Positions 30,539 through 43,452 of a stretch of 64,000 bases of DNA are shown here, one piece after another. The stretch is from Falsiroseomonas oleicola (GTDB lineage Bacteria > Pseudomonadota > Alphaproteobacteria > Acetobacterales > Acetobacteraceae). The notes below the pieces were generated by a model. It did no database searches. It saw nothing but the letters and a program-made list of their open reading frames with translations, and had not been told where the DNA came from. The number at the start of each line of letters is the position of its first letter. The first letter of the stretch is position 1. The position numbers and the translations under genes were made by a program. Location: assembly GCF_019029495.1 (NCBI RefSeq), contig NZ_JAERQM010000009.1, positions 62,001 through 126,000 on the forward strand, given 5' to 3'.

Positions 30539-30772
30539 CACCAGATCAGAAATCGCGTCATGAAATCGTCATAAATAACGGAAAATCCTACAGATATTGG
30601 AGAATGCCCCAGGCGCACGGCCTGGTCCATGCCCCCCCGGCCCGCGCCACCCCGCGTCTGGCGATTTCTTGTTGAAGATTCAAACGCTTCTGGCCGGCGG
30701 CCCGGATCGGCCCGTTCCGCCGCGCCGGAAACTGCGCTAGCGTCGCGGAAACGGCCGAGAGAGAGCACGGAC

Positions 30773-31195
30773 GTGCCGCCAGCACTTGCCTTGACCATCC
30801 CCCCCGAGACCGATGCGGTATCCCGCCTGCTCGACGCGCTGGAAGGCTTTGCCGAGGCGGCGGAGCTCTCGCCCAAGGCCGCGCATCGCCTCTCGGTGGT
30901 GGTGGAGGAACTGGCCGCCAATGTTGTGATGCACGGCAGCACCGGTCCCGGCGCCGCCACCTTCGTCGCCGTGACGGTCAGTCAGGAGGGCGACGACCTG
31001 GTCGCCACCATCGAGGATGACGGCCGCGCCTTCGACCCCCTGGCCCATGCCACGCCGGATACGGAGGCGGAGCTGGAGGATCGCGACATCGGCGGCCTCG
31101 GCGTGCATTTCGTCCAGAAGATGACCCGCGACCTGCGCTACAGCCGGGAGGATGGCCGCAACCGGCTGGTCGCCGTGCTGGACGCGGCCGGCTGA
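30773..31195 (+). CDS. RsbW-like anti-sigma factor serine kinase (HATPase domain)
   Basis: A 140-residue single-domain GHKL ATPase of the anti-sigma regulatory (RsbW/SpoIIAB) type. The N box is EELAANVVMHG, the G1 box DDGRAFDP, and the G2 box IGGLGVHFVQKM. Such kinases phosphorylate a STAS anti-sigma-factor antagonist and sequester a sigma factor or other partner. I start at the GTG at 30773 (GAGAG upstream); the same frame is open further 5' but gives an arginine-rich non-domain extension. First gene of the chemosensory cluster, 14 bases before cheR, so it is probably co-transcribed with it. No STAS protein gene is in the window that I can identify with confidence. Confidence 0.82.
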   Translation: MPPALALTIPPETDAVSRLLDALEGFAEAAELSPKAAHRLSVVVEELAANVVMHGSTGPGAATFVAVTVSQEGDDLVATIEDDGRAFDPLAHATPDTEAELEDRDIGGLGVHFVQKMTRDLRYSREDGRNRLVAVLDAAG

Positions 31196-31209: not shown

Positions 31210-32001
31210 ATGCCGCAGACGGCCCTGGCCGCCCCCGCGCTGGGCGCGGTGCAGCAGGGCCTTGCCGCCCTGGCCGGCTTCGCGGAATCCGATGTGCTGC
31301 GCAACCGGCTGCTGCGCGCCGCCCCGCTGCTGCCGCGCCTGCCGCTGGACCGCGCCAGCATCGACCATCCGGACTGGGCGGCATTGCTGGATGCGGTGAC
31401 GGTGCAGGAGACGCGGATGTTCCGCGCCGCGGCGCAGATCGCGACCTTCCGGGAACTTGTCCTGCCAACCCTCCTGCCAACCCTGGGCGATGGCCCGCTC
31501 TCGCTGGTCTCGGCCGGCTGCGCGACGGGGGAGGAGGCCTGGACGCTGGCCATCCTGGCCGCCGGCGCCGGGCGGGACTGGCAGGTGGAGGGCCTCGACC
31601 TGTGTCGCCCGGCGCTGGAGGCGGCGGTGGCCGCGCGCTACCACCTCGGCCCGCCCGATGCCTTGCGGGAGGTGCCGGAGGCCGATCGCGCCTGGCTCGA
31701 TATCGCCGATGGCTGGTTCGAACCGGTGGCGGCGCTGCGGCCCCGGGTGCATTTCCGCCGCGCCAATCTGCTCGCCCCCGACCTGCCTGCGGCGGCGGCC
31801 GATGCGATCCTGTGCCGCAACGTGCTGATCTACATGACGGAGGAAGGCCGCGTCGCGGTGCTGCGCCAACTGGTCGCGGCGCTGCGGCCGGGCGGGGCGC
31901 TGCTGCTCGGCCCGACCGACCGGCCGCCACCCGGCCTTGGCCTCGCCCCCTGGCATCGCGACATCATCGGCATCTGGCGGCGGGTGGATGCGGATGGCTG
32001 A
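31210..32001 (+). CDS. cheR: Chemotaxis protein methyltransferase CheR
   Basis: A 263-residue CheR that would transfer methyl groups from S-adenosylmethionine to receptor glutamates. The N-terminal helical domain is followed by VTVQETRMFR (the T-x-F/M-F-R motif that is normally NETYFFR), the SAM loop LVSAGCATGEEAWTLAIL, the ARYHLGP stretch, and the late CRNVLIYMTEEGR motif. It is shorter at the N-terminus than classical CheR. It overlaps the CheW-like gene by 8 bases. Confidence 0.9.
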   Translation: MPQTALAAPALGAVQQGLAALAGFAESDVLRNRLLRAAPLLPRLPLDRASIDHPDWAALLDAVTVQETRMFRAAAQIATFRELVLPTLLPTLGDGPLSLVSAGCATGEEAWTLAILAAGAGRDWQVEGLDLCRPALEAAVAARYHLGPPDALREVPEADRAWLDIADGWFEPVAALRPRVHFRRANLLAPDLPAAAADAILCRNVLIYMTEEGRVAVLRQLVAALRPGGALLLGPTDRPPPGLGLAPWHRDIIGIWRRVDADG

Positions 32002-33151
32002 GGCGCTGCGGGCCGGTGGCCAGATCTTCGCCCTGCCGCCCGGCGCCCTGGAGGTGCCGGCGGGCCTGCTGCGCCCGGCGCCCCTGGCCAGTTCGGGGCT
32101 GTTGGGCCTTGCCGCCATCGCCGGCCAGGTGCTGCCGGTGCTGGAAGCCGCGCCGGGGCTCGGCGGTGGCCCGGCCTGGGTGCTGCTGGACCGGCCCGGC
32201 GGCCGGGTGGTGGTGGCCGGGGAGGCGATCTGCGGCCTGCCGGAGGGAGGCGCGCCGCCGCTGCTGCCGCCCCGCCCCACGGCCCGCCGCGCGCCGGCAC
32301 CGCTGCCGGCCGGCCCAGGTGGCTGGTCCGTGCCGATGCGCGGTGGGGCGCAGCGGCAGGTGGCGCTGGCCGCCGAATTCGGCGCCTTGCGGATGGTGCT
32401 GCCCTTCGCGGCGCTGGAACGCGTGGTGCCGATGACCGAGCTGCGCCCGGCGCCCGCCGCGGGCCCCGCCGCGCTCGGCTATACGGTGGCGGCCGGGGCG
32501 CCGGCTTTGGTGCTCGATCCGGCCTGGCTGATGCAGGCCGAGGCTCCGGCCATCCCACCGACCCTGCTGCTGCTGTTCCGCCATGGCGGTCGCCGCCTCG
32601 GCCTGCCCTGCGGCCGGGTCGGTCCGGCCCGGGCCGGGGAGGCGACGCTGGTCCAGCGCCTCGATGCGGTGGCGGAGGCGCTGGTCGCCGCACCCCTGGC
32701 CGAGGCCGCCCTGCCGCCGCCGCCGGAGCCCAGCCGCGCCCTGCTGCTCTGCGCCGCCGGTGGCCAGGCCTTCGCTTTGCCGGTGGAGGAGGTGCTGGCG
32801 GTGATCCCGCCCATGGCCCTGACCCAGGCGCCGCACAGCCTGGGCGACCGCGCCTTGCCCGGCTTTCGCGGCATCGCGGCGCATCGGGGCGATGTGCTGC
32901 CGGTGCTGGATGCGGGGGAACGCCTCGGGGCGCGGTTCGTGCTGGACTCGCCATTGGCGGAGGCGCCGATGCTGCGGCTGCCCGGCGTCACGCCCGTGGC
33001 GCTGGCCGTCAGCCAGGTCACCGGGCTGCGCCGCATCCCGGAACGGCTGATCTCGGCCGTGGCCGGGGAGGGGATGGTCTCCGCCGTGGTGGCGCTGGGC
33101 GATGCGCCGCTGCCGGTCTGCCGCGCAGCCGTGTTGGGGGCATGGCGGTGA
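31994..33151 (+). CDS. CheW-like coupling protein with three CheW modules
   Basis: A 385-residue protein that reads as three consecutive CheW-like domains. The third (about 245-385) is clearest: LLCAAGGQAFALPVEEVLAVIP, then GFRGIAAHRGDVLPVLDAGE. The second (about 110-235) keeps the pattern (LRMVLPFAALERVVPMTE), and the first (about 1-95; GLAAIAGQVLPVLEAAPG) is reduced. CheW proteins link receptors to CheA; multi-module forms could bridge several array units. The start may be the ATG at 31994 or 31988; it overlaps cheR by 8 bases. CheB begins 19 bases after it. Confidence 0.78.
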   Translation: MAEALRAGGQIFALPPGALEVPAGLLRPAPLASSGLLGLAAIAGQVLPVLEAAPGLGGGPAWVLLDRPGGRVVVAGEAICGLPEGGAPPLLPPRPTARRAPAPLPAGPGGWSVPMRGGAQRQVALAAEFGALRMVLPFAALERVVPMTELRPAPAAGPAALGYTVAAGAPALVLDPAWLMQAEAPAIPPTLLLLFRHGGRRLGLPCGRVGPARAGEATLVQRLDAVAEALVAAPLAEAALPPPPEPSRALLLCAAGGQAFALPVEEVLAVIPPMALTQAPHSLGDRALPGFRGIAAHRGDVLPVLDAGERLGARFVLDSPLAEAPMLRLPGVTPVALAVSQVTGLRRIPERLISAVAGEGMVSAVVALGDAPLPVCRAAVLGAWR

Positions 33152-33170
33152 AGCAGATGGGCAGACGCCG

Positions 33171-34202
33171 GTGATCCGCGTTCTCGTCGTGGACGACAGC
33201 GGCTTCATGCGCATGGCGCTGCGCCGGATCATCGAGGCGGAGGGCGATCTGCGCGTGGTCGGCGAGGCCGCGGATGGCGAGGCCGCGATCGAACAGGCCG
33301 CCAAGCTGCGCCCCGATGTCATCGCCATGGATGTGGAGATGCCGAAGCTGGACGGGCTGGAGGCGACGCGGCGGATCATGGCGCTGCCCGATCCGCCGGC
33401 CGTGCTGATGGTAAGCCACCATACGCGGGACGGCTCGGCCACGGCGCTCTCGGCGCTGGATCGCGGGGCGGTGGACTACCTCTGCAAGGATGGCGACCTG
33501 GGCGGGGTCGATCTGTCCATGCTCGACCGCGAATTGCGCGGCCGGCTGCGGCACTGGGCGGGGCAGCGGGCCAAGGTGCGGCCGGCGGCGCGGGGCGCGG
33601 CCCCGGTGCGGGTGGTGAAGGCGGCGGGGGGTTGCGACGTGGTGGTGCTCGGCGCCTCCACCGGCGGGCCGGATGCGCTGGCCGCCTTCCTCGCCGCCGC
33701 CGGGCGTCTTGCCGTGCCCTGCGTGGTGGCGCAGCACATGCCGGCCGATCTGGCGCCGGACCTGGCCAAGCATCTGGCGCGGCTGTCCGGCGTGCCGGTG
33801 GGGGTCGGCAAGACGGGGCAGAAGCTGATGTCGGGGGAGGTCACCGTCATCCCCGGCGGCACCGATGGGCATCTGGCGCGCGGGGCGGGCACGGAGCTGA
33901 TCTTGCGGCTCGCGGTGGGGGCCGCGGCGGTGCATCCTTCGGTCGACCTGCTGTTCCAGTCGGCGGCGCTGGTGGCGCGGCGCGCCCTGGGCGTGGTGCT
34001 GACCGGGATGGGGCGGGACGGGCTGCTGGGGGCGCGGACGATGCAGGACAGGGGAATGCCGGTGCTGGCCCAGACGGTGGCGAGTTGCGTCGTCGGCGGC
34101 ATGCCCGGCGCGGTGATCGAGGCCGGCCTCGCCATCGAGACCGCCGACCCCGCCGGCCTCGGCCGCCGCGTGGCGTCGCTGGTGCGGGAGGTGGTGGCGT
34201 GA
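33171..34202 (+). CDS. cheB: Chemotaxis response regulator methylesterase CheB
   Basis: A 343-residue CheB. The receiver (1-115) begins IRVLVVDDSGFMRMALRRI, has its phospho-acceptor Asp in IAMDVEMPKLDG, and ends near LCKD. The methylesterase domain (about 155-343) carries the triad: Ser in LGASTGGPDAL, His in VVAQHMPADLAP, and Asp in LTGMGRDGLLGA. I begin at the GTG at 33171, giving the receiver a normal length; the open frame extends 23 codons upstream within the CheW gene. It removes methyl groups from receptors when phosphorylated by CheA. Its stop overlaps the next GTG by 4 bases (GTGA). Confidence 0.9.
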   Translation: MIRVLVVDDSGFMRMALRRIIEAEGDLRVVGEAADGEAAIEQAAKLRPDVIAMDVEMPKLDGLEATRRIMALPDPPAVLMVSHHTRDGSATALSALDRGAVDYLCKDGDLGGVDLSMLDRELRGRLRHWAGQRAKVRPAARGAAPVRVVKAAGGCDVVVLGASTGGPDALAAFLAAAGRLAVPCVVAQHMPADLAPDLAKHLARLSGVPVGVGKTGQKLMSGEVTVIPGGTDGHLARGAGTELILRLAVGAAAVHPSVDLLFQSAALVARRALGVVLTGMGRDGLLGARTMQDRGMPVLAQTVASCVVGGMPGAVIEAGLAIETADPAGLGRRVASLVREVVA

Positions 34203-35596
34203 GCCCGTCCGATGGGCGCAGCGCCGCAGGGCGCGAAGCCCTGAATCGGCCGGCAGGCAATGGCACCCTGGACCGGGATCTGCTGGACGCCTTCGTGCCG
34301 GAATTCGAGGCGGAGGCGGTGCGCCTCGCCATGGTGCGGGATGCCGCCGCCGCCGGCCGCGCGCTGGACCAGCTTCGCGCCATGGCCGCCGCCCTCGGCG
34401 CGCCGTCGCTGGCGGCACTGGTCGACCGTACGACCCTGGCGCTGGACCCGCTGGACTGGCCCGCCCTGCATGCGGGGGCGGAGGCCCTGGCGGCCCAGGC
34501 CCGCGCCGTCGGCCAGGCGGGGCGCGACGTGCCATTGGCGGAGGCCGCGCCCGTGCCCGTCGCCGAACCCGCCGCCGAACCTGCCGCCGCCTTCCTGGAC
34601 CGGGAGATGCTGGAGGCGCTGGCCCCGGAATTCGCCGCCGGCTGCGCCCGGCTGGCCGTCGCCGGGGATGCGGCGGAGGCCGGGCGCGCGCTGGACGGGC
34701 TTCGCGCCATGGCGGGCGCGGTCGGGCTGGGCTCGCTGCTGGCGCTGCTGGACCGCGCCGCGGGGCTGCTGGAGCCCTTCGATGCCAAGGGCCTCGCCGC
34801 GCTGGCGGATTCGCTGGCGGCGCAGGCCGCGCGCATCGTCGCCGCCGGGGCCGATCTCGACCTGCCGGAGGAGGAGGCGACGACCGCGGCGCTGGACCCC
34901 GAACTGCTGGCCGCCTTCGCGCCGGAATTCGCCGCCGCCTGCACCCGCCTCGCTTCAGCCACCGACCCCGCCGCCGCCGCCCGCGCGGCGGAGGCGCTGC
35001 GCGGCATGGCGGGGGCGCTGGGTCTCGATTCGCTGCGCGTGATGCTGGAAGGCATGCCGGCCGAGCCCTTTGACGCCGCTGCCCTGCCGCCCCTGGCCGC
35101 CGCTTTGGCGCGGCAGGCGGAGGCCATCGCCGCCGCCGGCCATGATCTGCCGACCGAGGCGGCGCCCCCGACCGCGCCGCGCCGTCGTGTTCTGGTGGTG
35201 GATGACAGCGCCATGATGCGCCGGCTGGTGCGGGAGACGCTGGCGCTGGATCCGGATTTCGAGGTGGTGGGGGAGGCCGCGGACGGCATCCAGGCGCTGC
35301 TCGCCCTGCAGCGCCTGACGCCCGACCTGACCATGCTGGATATCGAGATGCCGGAGCTGGACGGCCTCGGCGTGCTGCGGCGCTGGGCGCTGGAAGGCGG
35401 CGGCGCCATCGTCATCGTCTCCTCCGCCGCGCGGCCGGGCAGCGCCACGGCGGTGGAGGCGCGGCGGCTCGGTGTTTCGGGCATCGTGGGGAAGCCTTCC
35501 GGCGCGCTCAGCCCCGATCTGCGGGAACGCCAGGGGGTGGAGCTGCTGCGCACCGCGCGGCGGGCTGCCGGCCTGCCGGTGGAGGCGCCGAGGTGA
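34199..35596 (+). CDS. Three degenerate Hpt modules fused to a CheB/CheY-type receiver
   Basis: A 465-residue protein with an unusual layout. Three repeats of about 100 residues (about 24-110, 133-220, 232-318) each start LDxxLLxAFxPEF and contain a segment that aligns with the Hpt segment of the neighbouring CheA. CheA has RAFHSLKGMSDALGAP; here repeat 1 has RALDQLRAMAAALGAP. The phospho-accepting His is thus Asp57, Asp166 and Glu265, and the following Lys-Gly is Arg-Ala/Arg-Gly. A receiver follows (328-445; VLVVDDSAMMRRLV, phospho-site Asp381 in LDIEMPELDG). Without His the modules cannot relay phosphate and may act as docking or phosphomimic domains. It overlaps cheB by 4 bases. Confidence 0.75.
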   Translation: MSPSDGRSAAGREALNRPAGNGTLDRDLLDAFVPEFEAEAVRLAMVRDAAAAGRALDQLRAMAAALGAPSLAALVDRTTLALDPLDWPALHAGAEALAAQARAVGQAGRDVPLAEAAPVPVAEPAAEPAAAFLDREMLEALAPEFAAGCARLAVAGDAAEAGRALDGLRAMAGAVGLGSLLALLDRAAGLLEPFDAKGLAALADSLAAQAARIVAAGADLDLPEEEATTAALDPELLAAFAPEFAAACTRLASATDPAAAARAAEALRGMAGALGLDSLRVMLEGMPAEPFDAAALPPLAAALARQAEAIAAAGHDLPTEAAPPTAPRRRVLVVDDSAMMRRLVRETLALDPDFEVVGEAADGIQALLALQRLTPDLTMLDIEMPELDGLGVLRRWALEGGGAIVIVSSAARPGSATAVEARRLGVSGIVGKPSGALSPDLRERQGVELLRTARRAAGLPVEAPR

Positions 35597-35617: not shown

Positions 35618-38230
35618 ATGATTGAAGACGAGGCGCTCTGGCAGGAGTTCGCGGGTGAATCCGACGATCACCTGGACGCCATCGACCGCATCCTCTCGGC
35701 CGGGGAATCCGACCGTTCGGCGGTGGACCGGCTGTTCCGCGCCTTCCACTCGCTGAAGGGCATGTCGGATGCGCTGGGCGCGCCCGGCATGAAGAATGTG
35801 GCGCATCGCTGCGAGGACCTGCTGGGTCTGGCCCGCAACGGCAGGCTGGCCGTCACCGGCGCCGTGGCCGATGGGCTGCTGGCCGCGGTCGATACCCTGC
35901 GCCGTCAACGCGCGACGGTGCTCGGCCAGCACCGCGACGTGCCGGCGCCGGCGGACCTTCTGGCGCGTCTTTCGGCCCTGGCGGATGCGGGGCCGGCGCC
36001 AGCGCCGAGGATGGAAGCCGCGGCGCCGCCGCCCCATCTGGGCGCGGGCGAGGCCCTGCGTGGCGCGCTCGCCTCCCGCTTCCAGAATGCCGCGCCGCTG
36101 CTGGCCGGGCTGGTGGGCGAGCGGCGGGCGGAGGCGCTGCGGGAGGCCGCGGAACTGTCGGAAGCCGCGCGGCTGCTCGGCCTTGCCCGCCTGGCCGGGG
36201 CGCTGGACCGTCTGGCGGCCCAGGCTGGCACGGCCGCGGCGCTGCCGGCCCTGGGCGGGCTGCGGCGCGGGTTGCTGCTGTTGCAGGAGGTGGCCGGGGA
36301 GGAAGCCGGCGCCCTCGCGCTGACCGGGCCGGCCGGGGGCGAATCGGTGGCGCTCGGGCCGCGCCTCGCGGCGCTGGCCCTCCAGTTGGAAGCGGCGCTG
36401 GCCGGGGGCGATGCGACCGCCGCCATGGCCACGGCGGAGGAGGCGGCGGAGGTGGCCTGCGCCTTCGGGCTCGATGGGCTGGAACATCTGCTGCTGGCGC
36501 TCGGCGACCTGGCCGACCGCGCCGCCGATCCAGATGCGGCGGCCCTGCTTGCGGCGCAGGGGCCAGCCCTGGTTGAGCGGCTGCGCCATGCCGCAGAGGG
36601 CGGCCTGGCGGGGCTGCGGGCGGTGGCGGAGGCGCTGCCGGGTGGCGAGGCGATGGATGCGCGGATTCCCGCCGCCTTCGTCACCCTGCTCGGCGCTGAG
36701 GGCCGCAGGCGGGTGATCGCGGCGGTGGAGGGCGGGCGGTTGCTGGTGCGGCTGCGGCTCGCGATCGGCCTGCCGGCGGAGCTAGAGGCCGCCATCACCA
36801 CGGCCCTGGCGGCGGAGGCGGAGGTGCTGACCAGCCGCACCGTGCTGGACGGGCAGCCGCCGCATCTCGACATGCTGCTGGCCGGCCCGGCGGAGTTCGA
36901 GGCGCTGTCGCGCATCGTCACCGCCGCCGACCCGGCCCGCCGTGCCGTGCTCGACCTGGCCCCGGCCGAGACCGGCCCGGCGCCGGAGGCCGCGCCGCTG
37001 CGCAGCGCCCCGGTCACCATGCGGGTGCGGCAGGAGACGATCGACCAGATCATCGCGCTGGAGACGGAGGTGCGCGCCGCCGCCCTGGCGCTGGCGGAGA
37101 CGCTGGACGATGGCGGGGCGAGCGAAGCGCTGGCCGCCCTCGGCGCGCTGGAACGCCGGCTGTCGGGGGGCGCGGCGCGGGAGCTGGGCGTGGCGCTCGG
37201 CCGGCTGCGGCAGATGCATGAGACGCTGGAGCGCGCCGAGACACGGCTGGCCGTCGGCATGCGGCGGCTGGACGATTCGGTGATGGAGTTGCGCGTGGTG
37301 CCGGTCGGCACCCTCTTCGGCCGCCTGCCGCGCGTGGTGCGCGCCGTCGCCCAGGCCTCGGGGCGGGAGGTGGAACTGGTGATGGAGGGGGAGGACGTGA
37401 CCATCGACCGCTCCCTCGTCGAGCTTCTCGCCGACCCGCTGCTGCACCTGACGCGCAATGCCGTGGACCATGGCATCGAGCCGCCGGAGGCGCGGGAGGC
37501 CGCGGGCAAGCCGCGCCGGGGCATCCTGCGCGTCTCCGCCGCCCGCCGCACCGGCCAGGTCCGGGTGCGCGTCTCCGAGGACGGGCGGGGAATCGATCGC
37601 GCCCGCGTGCTGTCCCGTGCCGTCGCGCGCGGCCTGGTCAGCGCCGAACAGGCGGCGGCGATGGGGGAGGAGGAGGTCTTCGCCCTGCTGTTCCGCCCCG
37701 GCTTTTCCACGGCCGAGACGGTGACCGAGACCTCCGGCCGCGGGGTTGGGCTGGATGTGGTGCAGGACGCCATCCGCCGCGCCGGCGGCACGGTGGAGGT
37801 CGCCAGCGTCGCCGGCCAGGGCACCAGCTTCACCCTGCGCCTGCCGCTGACCGCCGCGGTGCAGACAGTGCTGCTGGTGGAGGCTGCAGGCCACCTCTAT
37901 GCGTTGCCGGCGGCGCGGGTGGAGGCGGTGCTGGAGGCCGGTGCCTCCGCCGGCTGCGAGGTGCTGGAACTGGCGGCGCTGGTGGGCGACGGGCGCGGCA
38001 GGGCTTCCACGCATCTCAAGGGCGGCGCCATCGTGATCGTGAAGTCGGGCGGCCGCAGCTTCGGCCTGGCGGTGGACCGGGTGCAGCGCCGCACCGACCT
38101 GCTGCTGCGCCCGCTGCATCCAGCGCTGGCGGCGCTGCCGGGCATCGGCGGCGTGGGCGTGCTGGGCCATGGCGAACCGGTGGTTGTGTTGGAACCGGAC
38201 GGGTTCGCCCCCGAAGTGGCGATTGGCTGA
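35618..38230 (+). CDS. cheA: Chemotaxis sensor histidine kinase CheA
   Basis: An 870-residue CheA. The P1 Hpt domain (1-105) has the phosphorylated His44 in FRAFHSLKGM. A helical region at about 140-340 contains two further Hpt-like bundles with no His at the equivalent positions. The dimerisation domain spans about 470-560, the ATPase domain about 570-735 with N box LTRNAVDHG (near 615), G1 EDGRGID (near 655), and G2 GRGVGLDVV (near 708), and the CheW-like P5 domain from about 745. It would phosphorylate CheB and the pseudo-Hpt receiver protein; no separate CheY gene is in the window. Confidence 0.92.
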   Translation: MIEDEALWQEFAGESDDHLDAIDRILSAGESDRSAVDRLFRAFHSLKGMSDALGAPGMKNVAHRCEDLLGLARNGRLAVTGAVADGLLAAVDTLRRQRATVLGQHRDVPAPADLLARLSALADAGPAPAPRMEAAAPPPHLGAGEALRGALASRFQNAAPLLAGLVGERRAEALREAAELSEAARLLGLARLAGALDRLAAQAGTAAALPALGGLRRGLLLLQEVAGEEAGALALTGPAGGESVALGPRLAALALQLEAALAGGDATAAMATAEEAAEVACAFGLDGLEHLLLALGDLADRAADPDAAALLAAQGPALVERLRHAAEGGLAGLRAVAEALPGGEAMDARIPAAFVTLLGAEGRRRVIAAVEGGRLLVRLRLAIGLPAELEAAITTALAAEAEVLTSRTVLDGQPPHLDMLLAGPAEFEALSRIVTAADPARRAVLDLAPAETGPAPEAAPLRSAPVTMRVRQETIDQIIALETEVRAAALALAETLDDGGASEALAALGALERRLSGGAARELGVALGRLRQMHETLERAETRLAVGMRRLDDSVMELRVVPVGTLFGRLPRVVRAVAQASGREVELVMEGEDVTIDRSLVELLADPLLHLTRNAVDHGIEPPEAREAAGKPRRGILRVSAARRTGQVRVRVSEDGRGIDRARVLSRAVARGLVSAEQAAAMGEEEVFALLFRPGFSTAETVTETSGRGVGLDVVQDAIRRAGGTVEVASVAGQGTSFTLRLPLTAAVQTVLLVEAAGHLYALPAARVEAVLEAGASAGCEVLELAALVGDGRGRASTHLKGGAIVIVKSGGRSFGLAVDRVQRRTDLLLRPLHPALAALPGIGGVGVLGHGEPVVVLEPDGFAPEVAIG

Positions 38231-38940: not shown

Positions 38941-38982
38941 GGCGATTAGACAAAGGCGCATACGCGCCCTTGTCTAATCGCC
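38941..38982. terminator. Long hairpin between convergent genes
   Basis: Two 19-base arms (38941-38959 and 38964-38982) pair with one A-C mismatch around an ATAC loop. The right arm contains the minus-strand TAG stop at 38974-38976. It starts 11 bases after the fasciclin stop. No clear T run follows on either strand, so it may protect RNA ends rather than terminate efficiently. Confidence 0.55.
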
Positions 38983-40155
38983 GAAGCGCAGCGCCAGGGC
39001 GGTGATGTCGTCGGCCTGCGGCGCGCCATCGGCGAAGGCGGTCACGGCGCGCAGCACGGTATCGACCACCTGGCGCGGATCGGTGCCGGCCTCGGCCAGG
39101 GCCGCCTCCAGCCGTTCGCGCCCGAAGAAGCCGCCCTTGTCGTCCTCCGCCTCCGAGACACCGTCGGAATAGCAGAACAGCGTCTCCCCCGGTGCCAAGG
39201 TGAAGGGGTCGGAGGCATAGAGAATGCCCTCCATCACGCCCAGCGCGGTCTGGCGGCGCAGTTTTTGCAGCAGCCGGGGCGGCGCCGCGCCGCCCAGCAG
39301 CAGGGGGATGTCATGCCCCGCCACGGCGATCCGGCCGGCCCCCGTGGTGCCGTCGATCACCCCGACCACCACGGTGACGAAGGTCTGGCTCTCATTGTCG
39401 GCCGAGAGGTCGTCATTGGTCATGGCCAGGATATCGCCCGGATCCGGCGCGCCATCCGTGGGCGCCAGCCGCTTCGCCGCCGCGCGCATCAGCCCGAGCG
39501 TGCGCGCCATGGTCAGCCCGGCCGGGGCGCCCTTGCCGGAGACATCGGCCACGGCGAACAGCATGTGCTTCGCATCCAGCCGCAGGCAGTCATAAAGGTC
39601 GCCACCCACCTGCCGCGCCGGCACCATCGCCGCATGGACCGAAAGCTGGCCGGTCGCCGCCGCCACGAAATCGCGCGGCACCAGGGAAAGCTGCGCGGCG
39701 CGGGCCGATTCCAGCTCCGCCTCCAGCGCCGCCAGCCGGGCATCGGCGAGGTCGCGCAGCCGCTTCTTCTCCAGCACCGCGCCGAGGCGGGCCTTCAGCA
39801 GCGGCGGGTCGAAGGATTTCGGCAGGTAGTCCTCGGCGCCCAGCTCGATGCAGCGGACGATCTTCTCCATCTCCGTCAGCGCGGAGATGACGATGACCGG
39901 CGGCGCGGCGCCGCGCGCGGCCCGCAACTGCTCCAGCACCCCGATGCCGTCCAGGTTCGGCATCTCCAGGTCCAGCAGCATGATGTCGAAGCGCGCCTTT
40001 TCGAGCGCCGCCAGCCCCTGGATGCCGTCCTCGGCCATGGTGACATTCGGATAGCCCAGCTCCGCCAGCCGGCGCTTCAGCACCAGCCGGTTGAAGCTGC
40101 TGTCGTCGACGACGAGGATGGCGACATCCTCGCTGGGCGTCATGCTCTCGCTCAT
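38974..40155 (-). CDS. Receiver-PP2C (RsbU/SpoIIE-type) phosphatase
   Basis: A 393-residue response regulator with a serine phosphatase output. The receiver (about 10-130) has [15 protein letters not shown], the phospho-acceptor Asp in [11 protein letters not shown], and LPKSFDP. A short coiled linker leads to a SpoIIE-type PP2C domain (about 170-393) with the metal-binding Asp residues in [30 protein letters not shown] and [11 protein letters not shown]. Phosphatases of this kind remove phosphate from a STAS antagonist and oppose an RsbW-like kinase, like the one at 30773. It overlaps the chemoreceptor gene by 4 bases, so receptor and phosphatase are made together. Confidence 0.9.
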
Positions 40156-41789
40156 GCCCGGCCCCGGTCGGCAGCCATCGCCTCGACCACGCTGCGGGTT
40201 TCGGCCGCGAGTTTGGACAGGTCGATCATGGTCACGGTGATCTCCTCGGCGGCCGTCGCATTGGACTGGCCGATGCGGGACAGGGTGCTGACGCGCTCGG
40301 TGATGGAGGTGACGGTGGCCTGCTGTTCCTCCATCGCCACGGCGATGGCGCCGGCAAGCCGCGCGCTTTCGGTCACCAGGGTTTCCAGCTCGTCCATCGC
40401 CTCGCCCACCGCGGCGGCGGTGCCGCTGCCTTCGCGGGTGCGGCGGCCGGCGACGAGGACGACATCGGCGATTTCCTGCGCCAGGCCCTCGCTGCTGGCG
40501 GCCAGCGCCCGGACTTCCTCCGCCACCACGGCGAGGCCCCGGCCGTGTTCGCCGGCGCGGGCGGCCTCGATGGCGGCGTTGATCGCCAGGATATTGGTCT
40601 GCGTCGCGATCTTGGCGATGGTGCCGGCGATGCGGGTGACACGCTCGGTATCCTCGGCCACCGCATCCACCAGCTCGATGAGGCTGCGCAGCTTCACCAG
40701 GTTCTCGGCCAGCAGGGTCTTCGATTCATCGGCGCGGTCGCTGCTGTCCTGCGTCGTCCGATTGACCTCCCGCACCGCATCCTGGGTATGGCCGAGCGCT
40801 TCCTCCACCTGCCGCAGCTCCGCGAGCTGGGTCATGGCGCCGTCGGAGACCTGGCCGATGGCGTCGGAGGCCTGGGTGGTGGCGATGGCGGTGCGGCGGG
40901 CGTTTTCCAGCGCCGTCTCGGTCAGGTTGCGGGCGGCGATCAGGTTGTCGCGGAACACCAGCAGGGCGCGGGCCATGTCGCCCACCTGGTCGGTGCGGTC
41001 GGCACCCGGGACGGTGGTCTCCACCGCGCCGCGCGACAGGCTGACCATGGCCGAGGCGAGGCGGGACAGCGGCCGCGCCAGCAGCCGCACCAGCACAACC
41101 CAGACCAGGGCGCAGCCCACCAGCCCGGCGGCGGCGGCGGCCAGCACGATGGTGCGCGCCTGCTGCTCCAACTGGCGTGCCGCGGCCAGGCTGACATCGG
41201 AGCTTTGCTTCACCTCCGTCCGCGCGGCGGTGGCGACACGGTTGAAGGCGGAGGCGAAGTCCAGCCATTCCTCATGCAGCGGGCCGAACTGGTCGCGCTG
41301 CCGGGCGGCGAAGGCGGCGCGGACCTGCTCGGTGAATTCCGGCAGCCGGCGGGCCATGTCGACGCCGCCGCCGAGCACGATCGGATCGAGCTGCGGGCCG
41401 AGCACATCGACCATCCGCTGGAAGGCCTCGCCGATCAACTGCCCGTTGCGGATCATCCGCTGGGCGCTGGGGCCGGGTTGCAGCACGCCGGCGATGACGC
41501 TGGCGAAGGCGGAGGAGAAATCCGCCACATGCAGGGCGAGGTCGTCCACCGCCGTATCGGCTTCGCGGTCGCGCAGGCCGAGCTGCTCGATGATGACCAC
41601 CTGCCGCCCGACGACGACCAGCGCGGCGCCGGAGAGCAGCCCCACCACCATCACCATCAGCAGCGTGATGAGCCCGGCGCGCACGCCGATACGCCCGAAC
41701 CAGGCGCCGAAGCGCGAGGCCTTGGGGCGCGGATGCGCGCGGGCAGGGGCTCCGCCTGTCGGGGCGGTCGCGGGGGGCGGTGCAGCCAT
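40152..41789 (-). CDS. Methyl-accepting chemotaxis protein
   Basis: A 545-residue chemoreceptor. A Pro-rich cytoplasmic N-tail is followed by one membrane helix (about 38-62), a periplasmic four-helix sensor region of about 140 residues, a second helix (about 210-235), a HAMP region (about 230-285), and a methyl-accepting signalling domain to the end. The hairpin tip reads [24 protein letters not shown], the conserved contact for CheA and CheW (about 405-430). The only receptor gene in the window, so it is probably the input to the divergent che genes. The ligand is unknown. Confidence 0.92.
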
Positions 41790-43018: not shown

Positions 43019-43452
43019 AGGACGTGTTGTGCCGGGTGCGCCCGGAATGGGTCGACCATTACGGCCATATGAACCTGGCCTATTACCTGGTGGCCTTCGA
43101 CCTCGCGACGGATGAGGTCTGGCCGCATTGGGGCCTCGGCCCGGCCTTGCGGGCGCGGGGGCTGGGCACCTTCGCGGTGGAGTCCTGGCAGGCCTATCGG
43201 CGCGAGGTGGTGCTGGACGCGCCGCTGGCGGCCGAAAGCGCGCTGCTGGCCTTCGACGCCAAGCGGTTGTTGCTGCGGCACCGGCTGTACCATGCCGCGG
43301 AAGGCTGGCTGTCGGCGGAGAATGAGGTGCTGTTCCTCTGCGTCGATCTCGCGACCCGCAAGGTCGGCGCCTGGCCGGAGGATGTGCTGGCGCGATTCGC
43401 AGAAATGCGGGTGGAGGAGGCGCCGCGGCGGCTGGCCCTGAAGCGGGGCTGA
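43015..43452 (+). CDS. Acyl-CoA thioesterase (4HBT/FabZ hotdog fold) family protein
   Basis: A 145-residue hotdog-fold thioesterase. The N-terminus VRPEWVDHYGHMNLAYYLVAFD contains the catalytic Asp followed by the xxGHMNxxxY signature of the 4-hydroxybenzoyl-CoA thioesterase type. The start is the ATG at 43015, overlapping the preceding stop, with GGAG 6 bases upstream; a GTG at 43009 is less likely. It hydrolyses an acyl-CoA; chain preference cannot be read. About 80 bases follow before the TMEM43-type gene. Confidence 0.83.
   Translation: MKDVLCRVRPEWVDHYGHMNLAYYLVAFDLATDEVWPHWGLGPALRARGLGTFAVESWQAYRREVVLDAPLAAESALLAFDAKRLLLRHRLYHAAEGWLSAENEVLFLCVDLATRKVGAWPEDVLARFAEMRVEEAPRRLALKRG

Follow-up and report, generated by a model that had tools for sequence, protein, structure and literature searches.

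A chemosensory locus in the window, by which we mean the whole 64,000-nucleotide stretch of Falsiroseomonas oleicola DNA analysed here, carries between cheB and cheA a gene for a 465-residue protein in which three tandem modules of the Hpt type, all without the phospho-accepting histidine, are joined to an intact receiver domain. A sequence-only reading of the same DNA had proposed this architecture, and the analyses described below support it. The protein would be a CheY-type response regulator of the chemosensory locus, bearing on its receiver three N-terminal pseudo-Hpt modules that act by docking; identity and mechanism are proposed jointly and tentatively.

The regulator gene and its locus

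The frame of the regulator gene is open throughout on translation; it begins at a GTG and has a 4-base overlap with the cheB stop. Residues ~1-320 of the protein make up the three tandem modules and the remainder is the receiver (Table 1); no kinase domain is matched in Pfam. At the DNA level the modules correspond to three 158-nt repeats of one family, at 34268, 34595 and 34892; identity to the middle copy, used as reference, is 70% and 71% for the two flanking copies.

Table 1. Features of the chemosensory locus, in positions of the window
Feature	Position	Strand	Basis or details
RsbW-like ATPase (HATPase_c_2), head of locus	30629..31195	+	Pfam
CheR methyltransferase	31210..32001	+	Pfam
Protein with three CheW-like stretches	31937..33151	+	Pfam
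CheB (receiver and methylesterase)	33147..34202	+	Pfam; start picked in this analysis
Regulator gene (three modules and CheY6-type receiver)	34199..35596	+	translation, 465 aa, relatives
Module 1	34268..34537	+	aa 24-113; predicted helices 26-45, 49-66, 69-79, 87-107
Module 1 His column, Asp57	34367-34369	+	codon GAC
Module 2	34595..34864	+	aa 133-222; four predicted helices
Module 2 His column, Asp166	34694-34696	+	codon GAC
Module 3	34892..35161	+	aa 232-321; four predicted helices
Module 3 His column, Glu265	34991-34993	+	codon GAG
Receiver domain	35183..35500	+	~aa 329-434; PF00072 E 1e-17
Phospho-acceptor Asp381	35339-35341	+	codon GAT
CheA (Hpt, HATPase and CheW-like domain)	35618..38230	+	870 aa; Pfam
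Receiver-SpoIIE (PP2C-type) phosphatase	38974..40155	-	convergent with locus; Pfam
Methyl-accepting chemotaxis protein	40152..41789	-	Pfam

The gene order in the window is RsbW-like ATPase, CheR, triple-CheW protein, CheB, regulator and CheA, and the Hpt domain of this CheA retains its histidine, His44 (AFHSLKGM). A scan of genome contigs yielded 16 loci, 12 of which are relatives carrying the regulator gene (L016-L027). When the window proteins were compared with these 12 loci by tblastn, CheA was found downstream in all 12 and CheB upstream in 11, with CheR in 9 and the RsbW-like ATPase in 10; the loci missing genes (L016, L023 and L027) are short or partly unreadable. A locus with the regulator gene between cheB and cheA is shared among Roseomonas-like Acetobacteraceae.

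Several observations concern the surroundings of the gene. The RsbW-like ATPase, present in L017-L022 and L024-L027, makes a link of the Che locus to a sigma-factor or phosphatase switch possible. The idea that the locus acts on a partner switch by way of a STAS protein of its own was considered and rejected: the genome has eight STAS matches, none of them within the window. L017, L018, L020 and L022 contain the receiver-SpoIIE phosphatase and the receptor next to it at complete or almost complete length (85-94% identity by tblastn; 85-90% for the phosphatase beside the Che locus), and tblastn did not find them in the flanks of L019, L024 and L025. Genome-wide there are one FliM match, 17 MCP matches, 63 receiver matches and, apart from the CheA of the locus, six Hpt matches above the cut-off, so that the output of the locus may be flagellar or of another kind. 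A tRNA called by ARAGORN at 43253-43348, with no anticodon assigned, lies inside a thioesterase-like gene and is probably spurious.

A conserved stretch of the neighbouring CheA, between P1 and the kinase (36029-36625, ~residues 138-336), resembles further degenerate Hpts by eye. It matches no Pfam family well (Hpt in 1 of 9 members, E 0.24), gives 2.5% and 1% against P1/Hpt by hhalign, and finds no Hpt up to E 1 in a PDB profile search; the idea of two degenerate CheA3-like Hpts in this CheA is therefore unsupported by all three methods.

The regulator gene was found in 43 of 397 genomes and 8 of 102 genera in a search of the family at E<=1e-30; a search of the order (43 of 395 genomes) added no genus. 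Among the genomes of the window's own genus it is present in 6 of 13 at the same threshold, an incidence that counts against a docking role. The 57 loci with a readable module (58 were tabulated, redundant loci counted) comprise 43 with one module and 14 with three. The window counts among the 14 three-module loci, together with six others in the genus and with L016-L022; the records of this last group carry the names Falsiroseomonas, Roseomonas or Acetobacteraceae, and some entries are one gene taken from two collections. Three modules occur in the window's genus and close relatives, and the usual single module is found in seven of the eight genera, in proteins of 233-293 residues.

Relationship of the modules and the receiver to known domains

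Hpt domains need a histidine for phosphate relay, and they are recognised by sequence, by a four-helix bundle and by the Lys and Gly at +3 and +4 from that histidine. The modules are probably homologous to the Hpt domain of CheA (P1), and the case is fair to good once related sequences are added; tests on single sequences are weak. The whole 465-residue protein matches Pfam Hpt (PF01627) at only E 2.9 and 8.6 bits, under the cut-off of 24.6, in the profile search suggested in the sequence-only reading. At the level of modules, Hpt was detected at E<=1 in 12 of 31 aligned modules from 15 proteins (best 2e-4), and was the family matched most often; in a second, overlapping set it was detected in 8 of 21. 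A profile built from 21 diverse modules and run against 177,635 distinct PDB sequences placed two Thermotoga CheA P1 domains at ranks 1 and 2 (E 5e-4 and 9e-4). In this alignment the profile 'aaAgRaldqLramAaalg' is laid on 'NEAFRALHTLKGMAGTMG' of Thermotoga CheA, with the module Asp on the CheA His. Comparison by hhalign with a mixed set of 15 CheA P1/Hpt sequences gave 57% and 72%, with RALDQLRAM on RAFHSLKGM. These two alignments uphold the assignment of the phospho-His column, at which Asp57, Asp166 and Glu265 had been read and with which the codons agree.

Predicted structures point in the same direction. The AlphaFold model of the full-length protein has four helices in each module (pTM 0.35), and module 1 modelled alone is again a four-helix bundle (pLDDT 96.4, pTM 0.88). 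The top Foldseek match of the latter is the P1 domain of Rhodobacter sphaeroides CheA3 in its complex with CheY6 (3kyi_A), at an E of 0.09 that is not significant alone; other Hpts and unrelated four-helix bundles follow close behind. A viral structure library searched with the module gave no match at E<=0.001.

That the modules are an unrelated four-helix bundle whose likeness to CheA P1 arose by chance in Ala/Leu-rich sequence is highly improbable: the sequence is indeed Ala-rich and of high GC, single sequences stay under the Pfam cut-off, hhalign gives just 9% when the comparison set is limited to the nine CheA P1 domains from these loci, and a designed protein (E 0.0026) and HLA chains (from 0.014) come next in the PDB search, but against this stand the first two ranks of CheA P1 in that search, the predominance of Hpt among the Pfam matches and the several Hpts among the Foldseek matches.

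The receiver phospho-site Asp381, previously read as intact, is so, and Asp335, Asp336, Asp381 and Lys432 are invariant in an alignment of 15 sequences, giving the receiver its Asp pair, phospho-Asp and Lys. Among PDB sequences the receiver matches R. sphaeroides CheY6 best (E 8e-27), with Ala338-Met339 aligned to the Ala-Met that follows the Asp pair in CheY6, which we take to be the Ala12-Met13 described for that protein (PMC2817712). After DDS, AM occurs in 38 of 58 loci, PT in 10 and other residues in 10 (redundant loci counted), a variation that counts against docking.

The phospho-histidine column and the role of the modules

No histidine occupies the phospho-His column in any of 62 distinct modules from 46 loci. 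In 43 of them (genera g1, g4, g6, g12 and g17, and named records) the column is acidic, with Asp in 38 and Glu in 5. The Lys-Gly that follows the histidine in Hpt is altered as well, as had been noted for the modules of the window: there Arg replaces Lys+3 throughout and Gly+4 is Ala, Ala and Gly in modules 1, 2 and 3, and among the 43 acid-column modules Arg+3 occurs in 36, Ala+4 in 31 and Gly+4 in 11.

The remaining 19 modules come from three other genera. Those of g45 and g102 (n=14) have Ala in 12, Asn in 1 and Val in 1, and those of g73 (n=5), two of which are gapped in the alignment and were read by motif, have Ala in 4 and Val in 1. All 19 carry Asp or Glu at +7 of the same helix (14 of 14 and 5 of 5), a position that is Gly, Ala or Ser in 38 of the 43 acid-column modules. 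Every one of the 62 distinct modules thus has an Asp or Glu on helix B, at either 0 or +7, and helix geometry would put the two positions on one helix face. A regular-expression count gave 51 distinct contexts, 48 of them with an acid at 0 or +7; the sequences of the three exceptions put them outside helix B, either within helix A or immediately ahead of the receiver. In the CheA P1 domains of the same loci, Asp is found at +7 in 10 of 12 inspected. Arg at -3 is likewise retained, in 42 of the 43 acid-column modules and in all 14 of g45 and g102. The total of 62 leaves out L042/L026 (an identical module with an insert and Asp at the column), L064, which has no readable module, and L027, which was not entered in the counts, the last two being partly N; L014 and L015 (weak matches), L028-L031 (receiver only) and L084 (a further match, receiver only, in a genome already represented) were not among the modules compared. 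By eye, the g73 module (L077-L080 and L083) seems to be cut short ahead of the receiver, and its helices A and B are the best preserved parts.

In the receiver tree, all 47 receivers of this gene form one clade (100/99) apart from eight outside receivers, and those of proteins with acid and non-acid modules fall within this same clade (L064 being labelled 'acid' by genus, not by its own module). The three non-acid genera are not one clade there. In the module tree, with g73 left out, a single branch (93/79) parts acid from non-acid modules; this tree has few columns and open forks and is weaker than the receiver tree.

Modules without the histidine cannot relay phosphate normally because that residue is absent, and to judge from the sequences relay through them is not supported. 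The best reading, still a tentative one, is that they are receiver-docking pseudo-Hpts fused to a receiver, which would compete with or tune CheA phosphotransfer. A module may occupy the site at which CheA P1 would dock, either on its own protein's receiver or on that of CheB; because the docked module is tethered, CheA-to-receiver phosphotransfer would be slowed or its threshold raised. The modules may also keep the regulator close to the array. The helix B acid, at the old His position here and at +7 in other genera, would lie near the acidic Mg2+ pocket and the conserved lysine of the receiver, setting docking strength and not carrying phosphate.

The pattern of conservation bears on this proposal. 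Pairwise comparison of eight proteins with three modules gives a mean identity of 82% in module 1, against 70% and 71% in modules 2 and 3; the receiver stands at 85.5% and the linkers at 42-46%. Helices A-D of module 1 have identities of 92.5, 84, 57 and 78%; those of module 2 (76, 74, 69 and 56%) show a weaker bias to helices A and B, and those of module 3 (73, 67, 70 and 72%) show none. In the CheA3 P1-CheY6 crystal, the interface with the receiver consists of helices A and B and the B-C loop (PMC2817712). Module 1 therefore most strongly retains its predicted helices A and B, the counterparts of the helices by which the CheA3 Hpt docks on CheY6, a pattern that suggests docking by module 1.

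Homology to CheA P1, the predicted fold, the CheY6-type receiver with its Ala-Met, the helix B acid in every module and CheA in every one of the 12 loci are counted in favour of docking. Counted against it are the pTM of the full-length model, which fixes no placement of the modules relative to the receiver, the A/B bias that is clear in module 1 but not in module 3, and the 13 of 82 module columns with unchanged residue class, which include the acid column and make it not unique. A survey, in its treatment of CheA3, regards the His-less Hpts of that kinase as largely nonfunctional (PMC10542144), which also counts against docking.

The rival that survives best, although rather unlikely, is that the former Hpt bundles are a scaffold, that is, a spacer, dimerisation or array-tethering part (e.g., a substitute for P2, the domain that binds CheY) without receiver docking. 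The variable copy number of the modules, the shortened module of g73, the non-acidic column in three genera, the lack of a Pfam P2 match in CheA and the unbiased module 3 would all suit such a part. It accounts less well for the peak of module 1 conservation in helices A and B and for the persistence of the helix B acid and of Arg at -3. Decoy or docking and scaffold both remain, and we think that docking fits best.

The sequence-only reading had also suggested permanent phospho-Hpt mimics and had asked whether the acidic residue is fixed in homologues. In the strict form of this idea, a carboxylate standing in for phospho-His would hold partner receivers or the CheA ATPase in a bound state. 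The acidic residue is fixed in the modules nearest the window's, 43 of 43 distinct ones drawn from five genera plus named relatives, where its class diversity is zero while positions -4 and +1 vary. Elsewhere, in three further genera, Ala, Val or Asn stands at the column, which is in part the variability that the reading had named as speaking against the idea. Since these 19 related modules lack the carboxylate at the column, a strict mimic is improbable, though the helix B acid is always present. Moreover, in the CheA3 P1-CheY6 crystals phosphorylation alters the buried surface little (PMC2817712), which may also count against a strict mimic, the affinity difference for CheA3 left aside.

Another rival, by analogy with CheA3, is that the modules act as phosphatases in cis, so that Asp381 would be dephosphorylated faster. 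In phosphatases of the CheZ and HisKA types, the residue used is a Gln or Asn. No Gln or Asn is found among the invariant or near-invariant module columns, and because the modules lack a conserved amide, catalysis of dephosphorylation is not supported. What keeps this rival alive, at a low probability, is the CheA3 precedent: the receiver is of the same class as CheY6, and CheA3 holds two His-less Hpts within the 794-residue stretch behind P1 (PMC10542144), which is credited with phosphatase activity on CheY-P (PMC2817712, PMC2924250).

Returning to docking, a doubtful extension is that these proteins constitute a class of regulators in which a dead phosphodonor domain is built in as a competitor: the pseudo-Hpt would cover the kinase docking face in cis, and both the number of modules (one or three) and the place of the helix B acid would set the output threshold of the chemosensory pathway. 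If true, this would give His-less Hpt domains a defined function.

Comparison with known systems

Plant pseudo-HPs such as AHP6 are His-less Hpt proteins that act as negative regulators of phosphotransfer; they are free-standing and have Asn in place of His. Unlike these, the modules described here are tandem and fused to a receiver, with Asp or Glu at the column. Single-domain CheY6-like receivers of other Alphaproteobacteria have a related receiver with the KPSG motif. In a search of the class (385 genomes, E<=1e-30), 11 other genomes align only from model position 83 on, that is, over linker and receiver, and those of their proteins inspected by eye have no module before the receiver.

His-less Hpt-type domains also occur in the chemosensory system of Pseudomonas aeruginosa, in ChpA (PMC10542144), a CheA that has several genuine Hpts and carries a receiver at its C terminus, whereas the regulator here matched no kinase domain. 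The closest parallel is the R. sphaeroides cheOp3 system, in which CheY6 is a receiver of the same class and the P1 of CheA3 is the top structural match of the module. CheA3 likewise has Hpts without His (PMC10542144), but they lie inside the kinase, whereas here they are fused to a response regulator, and the CheA of the present locus, unlike the CheA3/CheY6 system, is a single protein with Hpt His, HATPase and CheW-like domain. The 2023 survey states that the role of His-less Hpts in chemosensory kinases is yet to be determined (PMC10542144). A search of titles and abstract openings in the open-licence literature found no description of a CheY-type regulator with fused His-less Hpts.

His-less Hpts are thus known from CheA3 and ChpA, and what is new here is their placement on a regulator, apart from any kinase. 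Here a dead Hpt sits on a small receiver, often in one copy; the crystal structures 3kyi/3kyj are a template for the complex that may form, and the one-module proteins make the function of a dead Hpt testable.
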